Shown: positions 59,284-63,731 of the stretch, piece after piece
How positions within the stretch are numbered: the first letter of the stretch is position 1
Layout: each line of letters opens with the position of its first letter
Assembly: GCA_945882615.1 (NCBI GenBank)
Contig: CAMCWK010000007.1
Location: 1-64,000 of the forward strand
Origin: Rhizobium sp. Q54
GTDB taxonomy: Bacteria; Pseudomonadota; Alphaproteobacteria; Micropepsales; Micropepsaceae
Direction of reading: 5' to 3'
Length of the DNA: 64,000 nt
Position numbers and translations under genes: made by a program
The notes under the pieces: generated by a model
What the model was told of the DNA's origin: nothing
What the model saw: only the letters and a program-made list of their open reading frames with translations
The model's database searches: none

Positions 59284-59342
59284 CGCACCCCTTGGCGGCA
59301 AGGGAAAAATCCCATTATGCTTCTCAAAAAGAGGTGCCAAAA

Positions 59343-59720
59343 ATGAAAGCCCCGCTTGTTCTGACCGCCGCGTGCCTGGCCCTGATTTCCGCCGCCAACG
59401 CCCAGCCGCCCCCCACCCCCGCCGAGCAGGTCAAGACCCTCCAGTCCCGCCATGCCGAAAGCCTCAAGCAACATGCCGGTCTGCAGGCGATCGATGACGC
59501 GGTGAAGGCCGACTGCATCACCAAGGCGGCAGACGACAAGGCCAAGGCGGCGCTGTGCCCCTGCGCCGGCGCGGTGACGGTGCAATACTGGATGGACGAC
59601 GCCTTCATGCGCCAGCAGGTCGAAGCCTATCTCAAGTCCCCATCGCCCAAGGGCGTGTCGGAACTGCTGAAATATCAGGGCCCGGAGCTCTACCAGATCT
59701 GCCAGGCAGCCACGAAATAG
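59343..59720 (+). CDS. Small secreted Cys-containing protein
   Basis: Encodes 125 aa from ATG 59343, which opens a signal peptide (1-20, ending ANAQ) and follows AGAGGTG. The mature part is helical with three Cys around ADCITKAADDKAKAALCPC and a later YQICQAA. It may be a disulfide-linked helical bundle. It has no known family and is isolated from the neighbouring glycosyltransferase by 59 nt. Confidence 0.65.
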   Translation: MKAPLVLTAACLALISAANAQPPPTPAEQVKTLQSRHAESLKQHAGLQAIDDAVKADCITKAADDKAKAALCPCAGAVTVQYWMDDAFMRQQVEAYLKSPSPKGVSELLKYQGPELYQICQAATK

Positions 59721-59770
59721 GTCTTGCGCCCCATTGGTGTTAGGCTCGCCCACCCACCGGGAGATCTGCC

Positions 59771-59932
59771 ATGCGCGTGATCCTAGTCGCCGCCCTTGCC
59801 GCCCTGATGCTGTCGGGTTGCGCGATCAACTGGCCAACCGAGATGTCGGTGCCGCGCTTCACCTGGAGCCCCAACACCAACAGCCAGGCTGCCGACCCGG
59901 CAACCGACGAACGCGCCCTGCGCAAGCGCTGA
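59771..59932 (+). CDS. Small lipoprotein
   Basis: Encodes 53 aa with a lipoprotein signal (MRVILVAALAALMLSGC, lipobox LSGC, Cys17) and a short polar tail with FTWSPNTNSQAAD and RALRKR. It would be anchored by lipid in the envelope. It is placed 2 nt ahead of the next gene. Confidence 0.6.
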   Translation: MRVILVAALAALMLSGCAINWPTEMSVPRFTWSPNTNSQAADPATDERALRKR

Positions 59933-59934
59933 CC

Positions 59935-60195
59935 ATGAGATACCCGATGCGCCTACCGTTCCTGATGGCCGCCCTGGCATTGGCATCGCCCGCGATCGCC
60001 GCGACTCCCACACCACCGACGCCGCCCACCGCGCCCGCCGTCACGCCGGTACAGAGTACGCAGAAAGCCGCGCCACTGCGCCTGCGCGCCCCCCTGATGC
60101 TCGACGACCGCCGCCGCATGGTGCCGCCGGGCCGCATCGATCCGGGCTCGTACAAACCCATGCCCAAGAACGGCGGCGGCCCGGAGATCGGATAA
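59935..60195 (+). CDS. Small secreted Pro-rich protein
   Basis: Encodes 86 aa: signal peptide (1-23, ending AIAA), a Thr/Pro-rich linker (TPTPPTPPTAPAVTP) and a basic tail with APLMLDDRRRMVPPGRIDPGS. Only 2 nt separate it from the lipoprotein gene, so they are one transcript. No function is known. Confidence 0.6.
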   Translation: MRYPMRLPFLMAALALASPAIAATPTPPTPPTAPAVTPVQSTQKAAPLRLRAPLMLDDRRRMVPPGRIDPGSYKPMPKNGGGPEIG

Positions 60196-60198
60196 CAG

Positions 60199-60444
60199 AT
60201 GATTTTTGAGGCTGAGATTAAGATTCGCGGCGCTTGGGTCGAAGTAGATATTGCGGACGCTTTAGGGCTGCCGACGACTTCAGTCTTCCGTTGCATCGGC
60301 TGTCATGGACGGCTCTGGGCTCACAAAGAGTATAGCAACGGTACACGGGCACATTTCGAGCACGCTGTAGCTCACAAGGGATGCGCCCGAACTGACTACA
60401 ATTTCTCTGGCCACAAGGCGCGGCACCCTGAAGCGATTTCATGA
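60199..60444 (+). CDS. Small Cys/His (zinc-ribbon-like) protein
   Basis: Encodes 81 aa with RCIGCHGRLWAHK (CxxCH) and later FEHAVAHKGC, a set of Cys and His that could hold a zinc ion, as in small DNA-processing proteins. It is lower in GC than the genes to its left and begins 4 nt after them, which looks like the left edge of an islet (60199-62035). No ribosome site is strong; the function is unknown. Confidence 0.55.
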   Translation: MIFEAEIKIRGAWVEVDIADALGLPTTSVFRCIGCHGRLWAHKEYSNGTRAHFEHAVAHKGCARTDYNFSGHKARHPEAIS

Positions 60445-60461
60445 CAGGAGCGGCTACGACC

Positions 60462-60914
60462 TCAGTTCAGGAGAGATACGATACCGAGAAACAAGCCCAC
60501 AACACCTAGGGCAACAGAAATCAAACTGATCTTGGCAGGAATTCTATACGCCGGATCGGTGGCTGACCAAGCCCAGCGCATGCACTCACTCCATGTCGCA
60601 GTGTGCAGTTTAAAGTTGTAGGCGACATTCGGTTTTAAACCACCAAGCCGACCACGAGTTTCTAAATCCAGCCAAATCTCGTCTCTGCTATTATCGTGCG
60701 CTCCGCGGGCAACAAGAGGAACAAACACGCCGTTACATTCAACTGTGAGAATGCGTCCTGCGGAAACGCCGGGCCGGTGAGAAATATGCACTCGGACCAT
60801 GTCCAAAAAGACGTCCTCCAACCCGATCTCGCGAACGGTTAGGCACACGCAAGGTTGGGTTTGCCTCACGTAGCCCACATCACAGGCCCTTTCCGGTATC
60901 TTGGGTCGCGTCAT
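60462..60914 (-). CDS. Unknown protein with C-terminal membrane helix
   Basis: Encodes 150 aa from ATG 60914 (TTG 60920 is also possible). Most of the protein is a beta-rich soluble domain (VCLTVREIGLEDVFLDMVRVHISHR, VECNGVFVPLVARG) and the end is a hydrophobic helix (ISLISVALGVVGLFLGIVSLL), so it may be tail-anchored. Its first 35 nt overlap the end of the P63C gene, meaning both come from one transcript. Lower GC content than the surroundings. Not recognised. Confidence 0.6.
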   Translation of the reverse strand: MTRPKIPERACDVGYVRQTQPCVCLTVREIGLEDVFLDMVRVHISHRPGVSAGRILTVECNGVFVPLVARGAHDNSRDEIWLDLETRGRLGGLKPNVAYNFKLHTATWSECMRWAWSATDPAYRIPAKISLISVALGVVGLFLGIVSLLN

Positions 60915-61941
60915 AGTCAAAAGAAAGCTGCGGAGATGGGGCGCCCTTAGGAAGTTCGAAACGCGGGCGTAGGCGATTTAGCTTTTTCATAAAATCGTGC
61001 CAGTCGTCACTAAGCTGCATCATCGTAACTACTGCCCCAAGATGTTCTTTGAGTTTGGGATACCCGCGAGTTTGAGTTAATCGCCGGAAAAGATGCGTAG
61101 AAAGCCTACCTGAAGCCAGTTTTGGAGTTACAGCTTTGAGTTCTTCGAGGACACCAGGAGCGAGACGGCGATATACCACCTCATTGGTTAGGCAGCCGAA
61201 ATATTGGGGTCGCTTCACCGAGTCTTTTGGATATTCCAGATTTCGGAGCCGGAAAATCTCCTTGTAGAATTCGGGAGGGAATGTTGGAACGTAGGGCTGC
61301 AATTCCTTGGCGATATACTCGTTAAGAATACGGGCCAAGGCATCTTGAGTTCGAAAATTCTGGAATCCAGTTGCTTCATCGACCAGGGCAATAATACCGA
61401 CGTTTGCCAGCGCCCGGATCAGCACATCCGCAGCAGAAATCATGCGTTCGTAGCGAGCAGGTACGCTGCCGCTCTCTTTCAGTTCAGCGTCACGGAAGCG
61501 AAGATAAACTTCTGCAACCATCGGCAGCAGCCGGGCATCGTAACCCACACCCTTGCCGCCAGTTTTGGAGCGATAAAAGATGGGCGTGGTCGACTGCAGT
61601 AGATCGTCAGATATGAAGGGTTTGAGGGCTTCTGCCTGCAAGAAGAAGGGAAGTTCGTCTACGGTAGAGAGGACGCCCGTCCCCGCCTTTGGTGACCTGG
61701 AGCGGCCCAGTGCTCGCAAGAAGGTCGCCTGTGTGATGATGCGGGTCCCATTTTGGAGGACCGCGCTAGACACGGTCGATTTTCCGAGAGGGAAATCACC
61801 TTCGTGTTCCGCTACCGGCAGATTGCCCGCCCAGCGGCTGACGGCAGCTTTAGACGCGATTTCTCTGCGGCGCTCAGGAGAGAGAGCATCTTTTCGGGCC
61901 TTTGCAGCCTTAACTCGGGCCGGGTTTTTCACATCGGTCAT
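60880..61941 (-). CDS. P63C-domain protein
   Basis: Encodes 353 aa from ATG 61941, chosen because GGAG lies 6 nt upstream; longer starts enter the operator. The N-terminal 30 residues are basic (VKAAKARKDALSPERRREIASKAA). The C-terminal part is the P63C domain: ALANVGIIALVDEATGFQNFRTQDALARILN, ELQPYVPTFPPEFYKEIFRLR, VKRPQYFGCLTNEVVYRRLAPGVLEELK and HLGAVVTMMQLSDDW. P63C proteins are known from phages and scattered genomic islands; their function is not established. It lies with two small genes in a lower-GC islet. Confidence 0.85.
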   Translation of the reverse strand: MTDVKNPARVKAAKARKDALSPERRREIASKAAVSRWAGNLPVAEHEGDFPLGKSTVSSAVLQNGTRIITQATFLRALGRSRSPKAGTGVLSTVDELPFFLQAEALKPFISDDLLQSTTPIFYRSKTGGKGVGYDARLLPMVAEVYLRFRDAELKESGSVPARYERMISAADVLIRALANVGIIALVDEATGFQNFRTQDALARILNEYIAKELQPYVPTFPPEFYKEIFRLRNLEYPKDSVKRPQYFGCLTNEVVYRRLAPGVLEELKAVTPKLASGRLSTHLFRRLTQTRGYPKLKEHLGAVVTMMQLSDDWHDFMKKLNRLRPRFELPKGAPSPQLSFDYDATQDTGKGL

Positions 61942-61950
61942 CTGATTCTC

Positions 61951-61999
61951 CATGCTTGCAGGGAGATAAATACATGCTTGCAAAAATGTTTGCAAGCAT
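61951..61999 (-). promoter_or_regulatory. P63C-gene operator and promoter
   Basis: The palindrome ATGCTTGCAAA-AATG-TTTGCAAGCAT (61974-61999, 11-bp perfect arms) overlaps a candidate -35 (TTGCAA) and spacer of the minus-strand promoter. The 10-mer TGCAAGCATG (minus strand) recurs exactly 22 bp downstream at 61951-61960, a separation of two helical turns. Together they look like a three-half-site repressor operator. Confidence 0.75.
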
Positions 62000-62132
62000 A
62001 TGAACTGACGCGTGCTAGCATACAGGGGGCCCGGTAAACCTTTGAGATTTCAGCTATCCGCTAGCAAACTACCTTATCCCCGCCCGCCAGACGCGCTAGA
62101 AAGGCCCCCTAACAGGGGTCCTTACAACAACA

Positions 62133-63731
62133 ATGCCGCCCACCGGACGCCTCACCGCCCGCGAATGGACCTTTCTGGGGATCACCCTGCTGTTCTGGGC
62201 GGGGTTCGTGATCCTGCTCGGAAAAGACACCAGCTGGGACTTCCGCAATTACCACTGGTACGCCCCCTATGCGTTCCTGAACGGCCGCATGGGGATCGAC
62301 ATCGCCGTCGCCCATCAGGGCAGCTGGTACAATCCCTATCTCGACCTGCCCTTCTATTGGCTGGCGAACCACACGCGCGCCTGGATCGCGCTGGGCGTCT
62401 TGGGCGCGGTGCAGGGCGCCACCGTCATCCCGCTCTACATGATGGGCCGCTCCATCCTGCGCGTGGTGGCCAAGCCCGGCGATGCGCAATTGCTGGCGGG
62501 CGCACTCGCCCTCCTGGGCCAGTTCGGCGCCCTGACGATCACCGAGTTCGGCACCACCTATTACGACAATGTGATGGCCTGCTTCGCCCTTTCGGGCCTC
62601 GCCATCATCGTCTGCAACCGCGATGCCCTGCGCACCGGACCGTTGCGCAACGCCGCGATGCTGTCGGCGCTGGCCGGCCTGATCACCGGCATGGCGATGG
62701 GCCTGAAACTGCCCTCCATGCCCTGGTGCATCGGCTTCGCCGCCGCCCTGCTGGCGGTGGGCGGAAGCGGGCGGCATATCGGCCTTCGCCTGGCGGTGGG
62801 CGGCATTGCGGGCGTGATCGGCTTTGCCATCTTCGCCGCGCCCTGGATGCTCCATGTCTATGAGCAGACCGGCAATCCGCTGTTTCCCTATTTCAACGCC
62901 TATTGGCAATCGCCGCTGGCGCTCGACGCGCATTATCGCGACCTGCGCTTCGTCCCCATCCTGTTCTGGCGGCAGATATTCTTCCCCTTCCTCTTCACCC
63001 TGGACTGGCATGTCGCGGGCGATCTGGCGGTGCAGGATATCCGCCTGGCGCTCGCCTATATCCTGGTGATCCCGGCGGTCATCGTCCTGATCCTGAAGAA
63101 GGAGGCCGCCGACGCGCTGGTGGAACGCCGCGCCGCCATCATCCTGTTCGCCTTCGCCGCGGCCGGCTACGTCACCTGGCTGAAATTCTTCGCCATCTAC
63201 CGCTATGCCATCCTTCTGGAGATGCTCAGCGTGCTCCTGGTGATCGCGGCGGTCGGCCTGCTGCCGATCGCGCGCAAGACGCGCCAGCTGGTGCTGGTGG
63301 GCCTCGCCGCCCTGGTGCTGGTCACCACCCGCAGCGAGTTCCTGGAACGCGCCCCCGTCGAAGACCCCTATATCGAGACCGCGCTGCCCCCCATTCCCAA
63401 TCCGGGCAAGGCCATGGTGGTGATGACCGGCGACGCCCCGCTGGGCTTCATCGCCACCACCCTGCCGCCCCAGATCCCGGTGCTGCGGATCGACGGCTGG
63501 TTCCTGCAGCCGCGCGACGGCAGCGGGCTGACAAAGCTGATGAAGGCCCGGGTGGCGGCGCACCTGAAATCGGGCGGTGACCTCTACCTCCTGGCCGACG
63601 CCAATGACATGAACCGCGCCCGCGCGGCGCTGCGCGATTATCGCCTCGCCATCCGCTGGCCCGTCTGCCAGCAGTTCGATACAAATATCATCGGGCTCTA
63701 TCAGTGGTGCCCGCTAGCGAGATTGCCATGA
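62133..63731 (+). CDS. Polytopic membrane glycosyltransferase-like protein
   Basis: Encodes 532 aa with about 11 membrane helices and an early periplasmic loop (TSWDFRNYHWYAPYAFLNGRMG...QGSWYNPYLDLPFYW), the layout of GT-C enzymes that use polyprenyl-phosphate sugars (GT87/PMT-like). The acidic residue after W (SWD) could be catalytic. It is coupled by ATGA to a GT2 transferase, which would make the lipid-linked sugar donor. The target is not known. Confidence 0.75.
   Translation: MPPTGRLTAREWTFLGITLLFWAGFVILLGKDTSWDFRNYHWYAPYAFLNGRMGIDIAVAHQGSWYNPYLDLPFYWLANHTRAWIALGVLGAVQGATVIPLYMMGRSILRVVAKPGDAQLLAGALALLGQFGALTITEFGTTYYDNVMACFALSGLAIIVCNRDALRTGPLRNAAMLSALAGLITGMAMGLKLPSMPWCIGFAAALLAVGGSGRHIGLRLAVGGIAGVIGFAIFAAPWMLHVYEQTGNPLFPYFNAYWQSPLALDAHYRDLRFVPILFWRQIFFPFLFTLDWHVAGDLAVQDIRLALAYILVIPAVIVLILKKEAADALVERRAAIILFAFAAAGYVTWLKFFAIYRYAILLEMLSVLLVIAAVGLLPIARKTRQLVLVGLAALVLVTTRSEFLERAPVEDPYIETALPPIPNPGKAMVVMTGDAPLGFIATTLPPQIPVLRIDGWFLQPRDGSGLTKLMKARVAAHLKSGGDLYLLADANDMNRARAALRDYRLAIRWPVCQQFDTNIIGLYQWCPLARLP

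Follow-up and report, generated by a model that had tools for sequence, protein, structure and literature searches.

What does a short islet of three genes with low GC content, one of them encoding a protein with the P63C domain, do for the DNA that carries it? A preliminary description of the locus had suggested a two-gene defence or toxin-antitoxin module, built of a DNA-contacting P63C protein and a membrane-anchored partner. The origin of the islet, the family to which its main gene belongs and a DNA repeat at the start of that gene are considered here in the whole stretch of DNA analysed, 64,000 nucleotides long (the window), and in related loci.

The islet as an insertion

All three open reading frames of the islet are present in the ORF list and in the window sequence, and the deviating composition ascribed to them earlier is borne out. 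The islet (60196..62075, no strand) has a GC content of 52.9% against 64.7% for the whole window and is its lowest-GC stretch of 1.9 kb, with none of 622 sliding windows (1880 nt, step 100) equally low. It sits at a tight junction between a glycosyltransferase gene and the gene at 62133; both, together with the flanking phosphoesterase gene, are recurrent in the genus, the gene at 62133 being found in 24 of the 41 genomes searched, the islet's own genome counted. Fifteen same-genus loci were drawn from the 22 other same-genus genomes with a match to this gene, and in all 15 none of the three islet genes was found (tblastn, E 1e-3). In 12 of these loci, about 85-155 nt separate the aligned ends of the glycosyltransferase gene and of gene 62133; in the remaining three (L065, L078, L079) the distance comes to about 1.2, 1.2 and 2.2 kb and is taken up by other material. 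In the nearest relative, the DNA alignment ends at window position 60193 and restarts at 62076, and the islet is replaced by different ORFs, of which one resembles a cytochrome c by eye. The islet is thus an insertion.

The junction between the glycosyltransferase gene and gene 62133 (window 59284-62132) is itself variable across the genus. No att-like direct repeats or tRNA were evident at the islet. The islet was also considered as an IS1-type transposon with ends, and the motif TAGGACACTACC, seen in two other P63C loci (L001, L002), was sought at both borders; with 10 of 12 letters on the right, at 62062, and at best 7 of 12 on the left, the match is too weak. The right-hand sequence, TAGCAAACTACC (62062-62073), agrees with the IS1-type end motif of L001 in 10 of 12 letters and lies right at the islet border beyond which homology to the relative picks up again, and the other border has no partner for it.

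A probable DNA-binding protein

The P63C gene lies on the minus strand (60880..61941; 353 aa; stop TGA 60880-60882). Its start is most likely the ATG at 61941, judging from a GGAG six bases ahead (61948..61951, minus strand), the putative ribosome binding site. By sequence the protein is a clear member of the Pfam family P63C (PF10546; E 7.9e-27, 94.2 bits against a cut-off of 26.1) and of PHROG 2384 (phrog_2384; E 9.9e-110 over residues 20-347), the name-giver being p63 of Myxococcus phage Mx8. The Pfam domain falls at 61051..61329 on the minus strand. Ahead of it, on the same strand, an AlphaFold2 model of modest confidence (mean pLDDT 67.9, pTM 0.47) places an N-terminal domain of about residues 1-40 (61822..61941), with predicted helices at 7-19 and 22-38, and a middle domain of residues 45-194 (61360..61809); the model comprises a helical hairpin (7-38), a middle part rich in strands and a helical C-terminus. 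A hidden Markov model of our own for the N-terminal domain matches the protein with E 5e-18, the window sequence itself being among its seeds.

The middle domain is labelled Bro-N/KilA-N-like, tentatively, because its structural matches stay under Z 6. With VIA-align the model of the protein matches DdrC (7udi; Z 5.9, rmsd 9.3, 188 aligned), 4ye7 (Z 5.8, rmsd 3.4, 95 aligned), 1sbx (Z 3.4, rmsd 5.0, 88 aligned) and PCG2 (4ux5; Z 2.7); 4ye7 we take to be a member of the KilA-N/Bro-N fold. In a viral structure library, K7YPE6, p63 of Mx8 (the second match) and A0A192Y858 fall at E < 0.001, and many Bro proteins lie above that value (Bro-N matches at E 0.013 and above). Foldseek gave no match to the model in the PDB at E 0.001, its top rows being unrelated enzymes; Pfam reports no Bro-N or KilA-N match in the window protein, and PADLOC reports nothing for it. 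Bro-N proteins and phage antirepressors, to which the middle domain is weakly similar in structure, have other C-terminal domains. The protein probably binds DNA, much as the preliminary description had supposed.

A cargo gene of mobile elements

Phages and plasmids both carry relatives of P63C: 47 of the 50,697 phage records and 15 of the 72,556 plasmid records contain them. Of 398 genomes sampled from the phylum, 30 match phrog_2384; just 12 of the 30 do so over 80% or more of the profile, and many others show the N-terminal part only. The P63C loci read further are a non-random sample with flanks that are often short, and in 5 of 13 of them a divergent IS1-type transposase lies upstream (L001, L002, L005, L006, L109), in 4 of 13 an IS1595-type transposase directly upstream on the same strand as P63C (L017, L019, L098, L110). 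Pfam at its cut-offs confirms both transposase labels; in NCBIfam the IS1-type transposases score below its own cut-off. In L001, TAGGACACT and its complement flank the transposase and P63C on both sides, and P63C is therefore cargo inside that element. Among 20 annotated records, P63C directly follows the gene in the position of the CI repressor in four (L043, L135, L136, L138), namely in phages ST104, Midgardsormr38 and Kuwabara and in a phage-like module that an E. coli plasmid carries; the window gene, unlike these, does not directly follow a prophage repressor. Defence-type neighbours are seen in five of the 20 (L047, L048, L049, L133, L141), a count made without a control comparison.

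P63C is, then, carried as cargo by phages, by plasmids and by elements of the IS1 or IS1595 type, and the mobile, phage-linked character attributed to it at first holds; its presence on plasmids and beside transposases speaks against its being a phage remnant only. The open literature consulted gives no function for the P63C domain, and no report on Mx8 p63 of Myxococcus was found there. As a further observation on two of these loci, the transposase is divergent to P63C in both L001:3346-6828 and L002:124-2836, with TAGGACACT on both sides in the former and on one side in the latter, and a related small ORF (SDVDPKELK...) stands behind P63C in both.

A repeat around the start of the gene

The region from -200 to +30 around the P63C starts of 32 loci was searched de novo for common 7-mers, and GCAAGCA/TGCTTGC, the commonest, is present in 23 of them. 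In 200 dinucleotide shuffles this 7-mer appeared on average in 3.7 of the 32 loci and never in more than 8, and the best 7-mer of any kind never in more than 12. Two to six copies per gene lie between -93 and +22, in inverted as well as direct order, and the spacers of the inverted repeats cluster at 4, 10-13 and 24-26 nt. In the window, an inverted pair, TGCTTGCA and TGCAAGCA separated by 8 nt (61975..61998, no strand), is followed towards the gene by a third copy of the 8-mer (61953..61960, no strand) directly before the GGAG. All three exact 8-mers are in the P63C promoter and nowhere else in the 64 kb, the shorter 7-mer occurring 11 more times elsewhere.

The inverted pair occurs once in its own genome of 2.85 Mb, at the P63C promoter. 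A search of 16 records gave 13 forward matches in 8 records, all upstream of P63C by coordinates, and the backward control gave 2. The repeat was found in 19 of 20 P63C promoters against 22 of 832 other slices, a check of specificity and not of frequency, as the 20 loci had been picked mainly for carrying it; the regions upstream of 21 BstA genes hold none. In the open literature, as far as its accessible parts go, a repeat upstream of P63C is not mentioned, and the titles listed for TGCAAGCA are on other subjects.

The repeat and the N-terminal domain

P63C genes with the N-terminal helical hairpin mostly carry this repeated start signal, an association that is new here. The repeat is present around the start in 32 of the 38 genes with the N-terminal domain and in 0 of the 12 without it. 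Among the loci fetched after the idea had formed, the figures are 10 of 12 with the domain against 0 of 8 without (Fisher 0.0004), the model of the domain having been built on the first set of loci and applied to the second (20 later loci scored). Left out of these counts are two genes cut by contig ends (L003, L008; included in the 32-locus search, not in the 38 and 12), the fragments L022, L023, L053, L101-L106 and L113-L117, and L051, L095 and L099, which are on the same contigs as L040 or L052; the near-copies L010/L045 and L048/L049 were retained.

Five of the six exceptions with the N-terminal domain show variant repeats, each weak or moderate alone: four copies of GCTTGA in L002 (0 of 300 shuffles), three of CAAGCA in L040 (p 0.03), an inverted repeat ATACTTGC in L136 (p 0.03), ATGCGTGCT in L100 (p 0.01), and TGCACGTT with three copies of CGTGCA in L042 (p 0.05 and 0.07). 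The start region of the sixth, L015, is just AT-rich.

In a tree of the rest of the P63C protein (49 rows), the N-domain label changes at least 6-8 times. Across six independent pairs on supported branches, the repeat changes in the same way in 4-5 and in the opposite way in none (sign test, median p 0.0625). In one clear instance, L134 and L019 are 87% identical over the matched body of the protein; L134 has both the domain and the repeat, L019 neither. Since the promoter adjoins the N-terminus, one exchange may carry the two together. The association supports, without proving, a reading of the repeat by the N-terminal domain. The domain was also considered as a general carrier of the repeat, an idea that was rejected: stand-alone genes with a similar domain have the repeat in 0 of 11 cases (within 250 nt upstream of the match).

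Comparison with BstA

According to the available part of the published account, BstA of Salmonella phage BTP1 inhibits phage replication and is silenced by aba, a 63-bp DNA element that overlaps the bstA start and depends on the direct repeats at its ends (PMC8585504). The likeness to P63C is one of design. Each is a solo gene; the slot from cI to N in P22-type phages holds BstA in BTP1 and P63C in ST104; BstA has a KilA-N-like domain, of which weak matches give a hint in P63C; and in both, DNA repeats overlap the gene start and vary between relatives, as far as the same part of that account describes aba (PMC8585504). A BstA relative (L084) lies behind an IS1595-type transposase, as do some P63C genes. 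The repeats themselves differ, CCCGCC in aba as given there (PMC8585504) and TGCAAGCA in P63C.

The proteins differ as well: their similarity over the whole length is not significant, and their C-terminal domains fail to align. A test for kinship by sequence was negative; among the hits of P63C up to E 1 the BstA family (phrog_6287) is absent, and profile comparison gives a probability of 7-10% for the whole proteins and 0.5% for the C-terminal halves. The middle domains are co-linear over 124 columns with a probability of 41%, two cross-controls giving 0.1% and 0.7%. A model of BstA (mean pLDDT 79.8) matches DdrC (7udi; Z 6.0, rmsd 4.3, 97 aligned), 4ye7 (Z 4.6, rmsd 4.8, 83 aligned), MBP1 (1bm8; Z 4.2) and 1sbx (Z 3.6). 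DdrC, 4ye7 and 1sbx are thus common to the match lists of the two proteins, at Z under 6.1, a level below that at which such matches of models would mean more than a common arrangement. Because the comparisons of sequence and structure are weak, P63C is called BstA-like in architecture and place, and not a BstA.

Several composite proteins were seen alongside. L025, L026 and L027 have a KilA-N domain fused to the P63C domain, of the phrog_1136 type (family search on L026 only); the P63C domain is common to them and the window protein, and a KilA-N domain recognised by Pfam replaces the hairpin and middle domain. By eye, L086 joins a KilA-N-like start to a BstA-type C-terminal half. In L084 the IS1595-type transposase is directly upstream of the BstA-like gene on the same strand, and a similar N-terminal stretch is common to L084 and the P63C loci L017 and L019.

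A proposed role for P63C, and alternatives

The reading that we favour, tentatively and a little short of an even chance, is that of a cargo insertion with a solitary DNA-binding P63C protein that is autoregulated through its own repeat and, like BstA, probably interferes with phages. The main gene of the small cargo insertion would encode a stand-alone DNA-binding protein of mobile elements, in which the P63C domain is preceded by the helical hairpin at the N-terminus and by a middle domain of Bro-N/KilA-N-like type. Half-sites of the form TGCAAGCA in the promoter and ribosome-binding region of its own gene would be bound by this protein, most likely through the hairpin, and its expression would thereby be limited; on this proposal, the repeat would be kept across very distant hosts and be otherwise rare per replicon because P63C autoregulates through it. 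Once foreign phage DNA replicates, P63C would probably be drawn to it and block it, as BstA does, and the repeated operator may double as a self-exemption for the carrying element, as aba does. The simplest common account for P63C and BstA would be that of an autoregulated DNA-binding effector against foreign replicons.

The main rival to a role in defence, which we consider rather unlikely, is that P63C regulates the mobile element that carries it, either as an accessory repressor or antirepressor or as a repressor of the divergent transposase. The names Bro-N and antirepressor among the weak structural matches would fit such a role, as would the place of P63C beside repressors or integrases and the position of the repeat, which lies between the divergent IS1-type transposase and P63C in L001, L005, L006 and L109, with the variant repeat at the same place in L002. 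However, P63C is found on very different elements, and the gene 3' of it is convergent in 10 of the 20 annotated records. Further, the search of 16 records showed the inverted pair nowhere else, and at its stringency a second target gene is therefore not apparent.

A further reading, the most novel of those considered, is doubtful. P63C and its TGCAAGCA-type element could constitute a second, sequence-distinct mobile-element defence with a built-in password, in which the N-terminal domain would read the half-sites of its own gene, the element would exempt the carrying replicon, and clades would differ in their half-sites (TGCTTGC, TGCTTGA, ACTTGC, GCGTGCT, ACGTGCA), each element being immune to its own protein only.

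That P63C is a decayed, non-functional relic of cargo appears quite improbable. Absence of the gene from the same-genus loci inspected speaks for it, but in the window copy the reading frame is open and of normal length, identity to L001 is 84%, and the start region is intact, with its three exact 8-mers, the sole ones in the 64 kb. Still less probable is a repeat that acts as RNA, in the form of a leader hairpin, or as a site for a host factor, with P63C having an unrelated role. While the inverted pair does score as a terminator-like hairpin, copies in direct as well as inverted order and at many spacings argue against this, as do the extra unpaired copies with the same letters and the four copies in L002 with the same variant core; moreover, the hosts (Deinococcus, Acinetobacter, Salmonella, Burkholderia relatives) are too diverse for a single host factor.

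For P63C, a widespread domain without an assigned function, a conserved DNA element at the start of its own gene, tied to one protein domain, offers a direct biochemical handle and a testable role. If the parallel with BstA is true, prophage self-immunity by a DNA element in cis would be a strategy of general standing: more than one family would have evolved or acquired it, and it would extend to plasmids and transposons.

The neighbouring genes

The second gene (60462..60914, minus strand), known from the ORF list and from remote plasmid relatives, encodes a protein that ends in one hydrophobic stretch, and the C-terminal membrane helix assigned to it earlier is thereby upheld. The overlap with P63C described along with it exists only if the start is TTG 60920 or ATG 60914; an alternative start at GTG 60878, with GGAAAGG ahead of it and just past the P63C stop, gives none. 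The third gene (60199..60444, plus strand; ORF list) encodes an 81-aa zinc-ribbon-like protein with the sequence pattern CxxCHG...H...GC, which is kept in three plasmid relatives.

Searches with the membrane-protein profile and the zinc-ribbon protein covered 56 stretches surrounding P63C genes, 342 kb in all, with many stretches reaching just about 1.5 kb per side and some built on fragmentary P63C matches; each search returned the window copy only. Because no relatives stand beside the other P63C genes in these stretches, the two are best seen as separate cargo; they look unrelated to P63C. In phages, the membrane protein has three matches at E 3-6, none of note, and it has no confirmed relative in viral contigs and none in 40 related genomes. 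Among 366 other genomes of the class there is one clear relative (G470, E 8.4e-14), with internal stops, directly behind an IS1-type transposase and with no P63C gene in the 8.5 kb read, and three more matches stand at E about 0.008. Its relatives on plasmids are weak (best E 5e-4, Geoalkalibacter), and their annotated surroundings, where looked at, hold no P63C. Two PADLOC models of 2TM effectors (E 0.018, 0.059) were taken as chance hydrophobic matches.

The two-gene defence or toxin-antitoxin module first suggested, in spite of two ORFs on the same strand that are close or overlapping, is thus the least probable reading and very unlikely, as the pair does not co-occur among the loci sampled (a membrane relative in 0 of 56 other P63C stretches) and the best non-plasmid relative (E < 1e-3), in G470, has stops, an IS1-type neighbour and no P63C.

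In the plasmid relatives of the membrane protein at L142:2794-3246, L144:2812-3243 and L143:2992-3366, the C-terminal helix is conserved. On a Sphingobium plasmid (L219:2001-2225), an unannotated relative of the zinc-ribbon-like gene lies near genes for a WYL-domain protein, a DUF2779 protein and a RecB-like nuclease.
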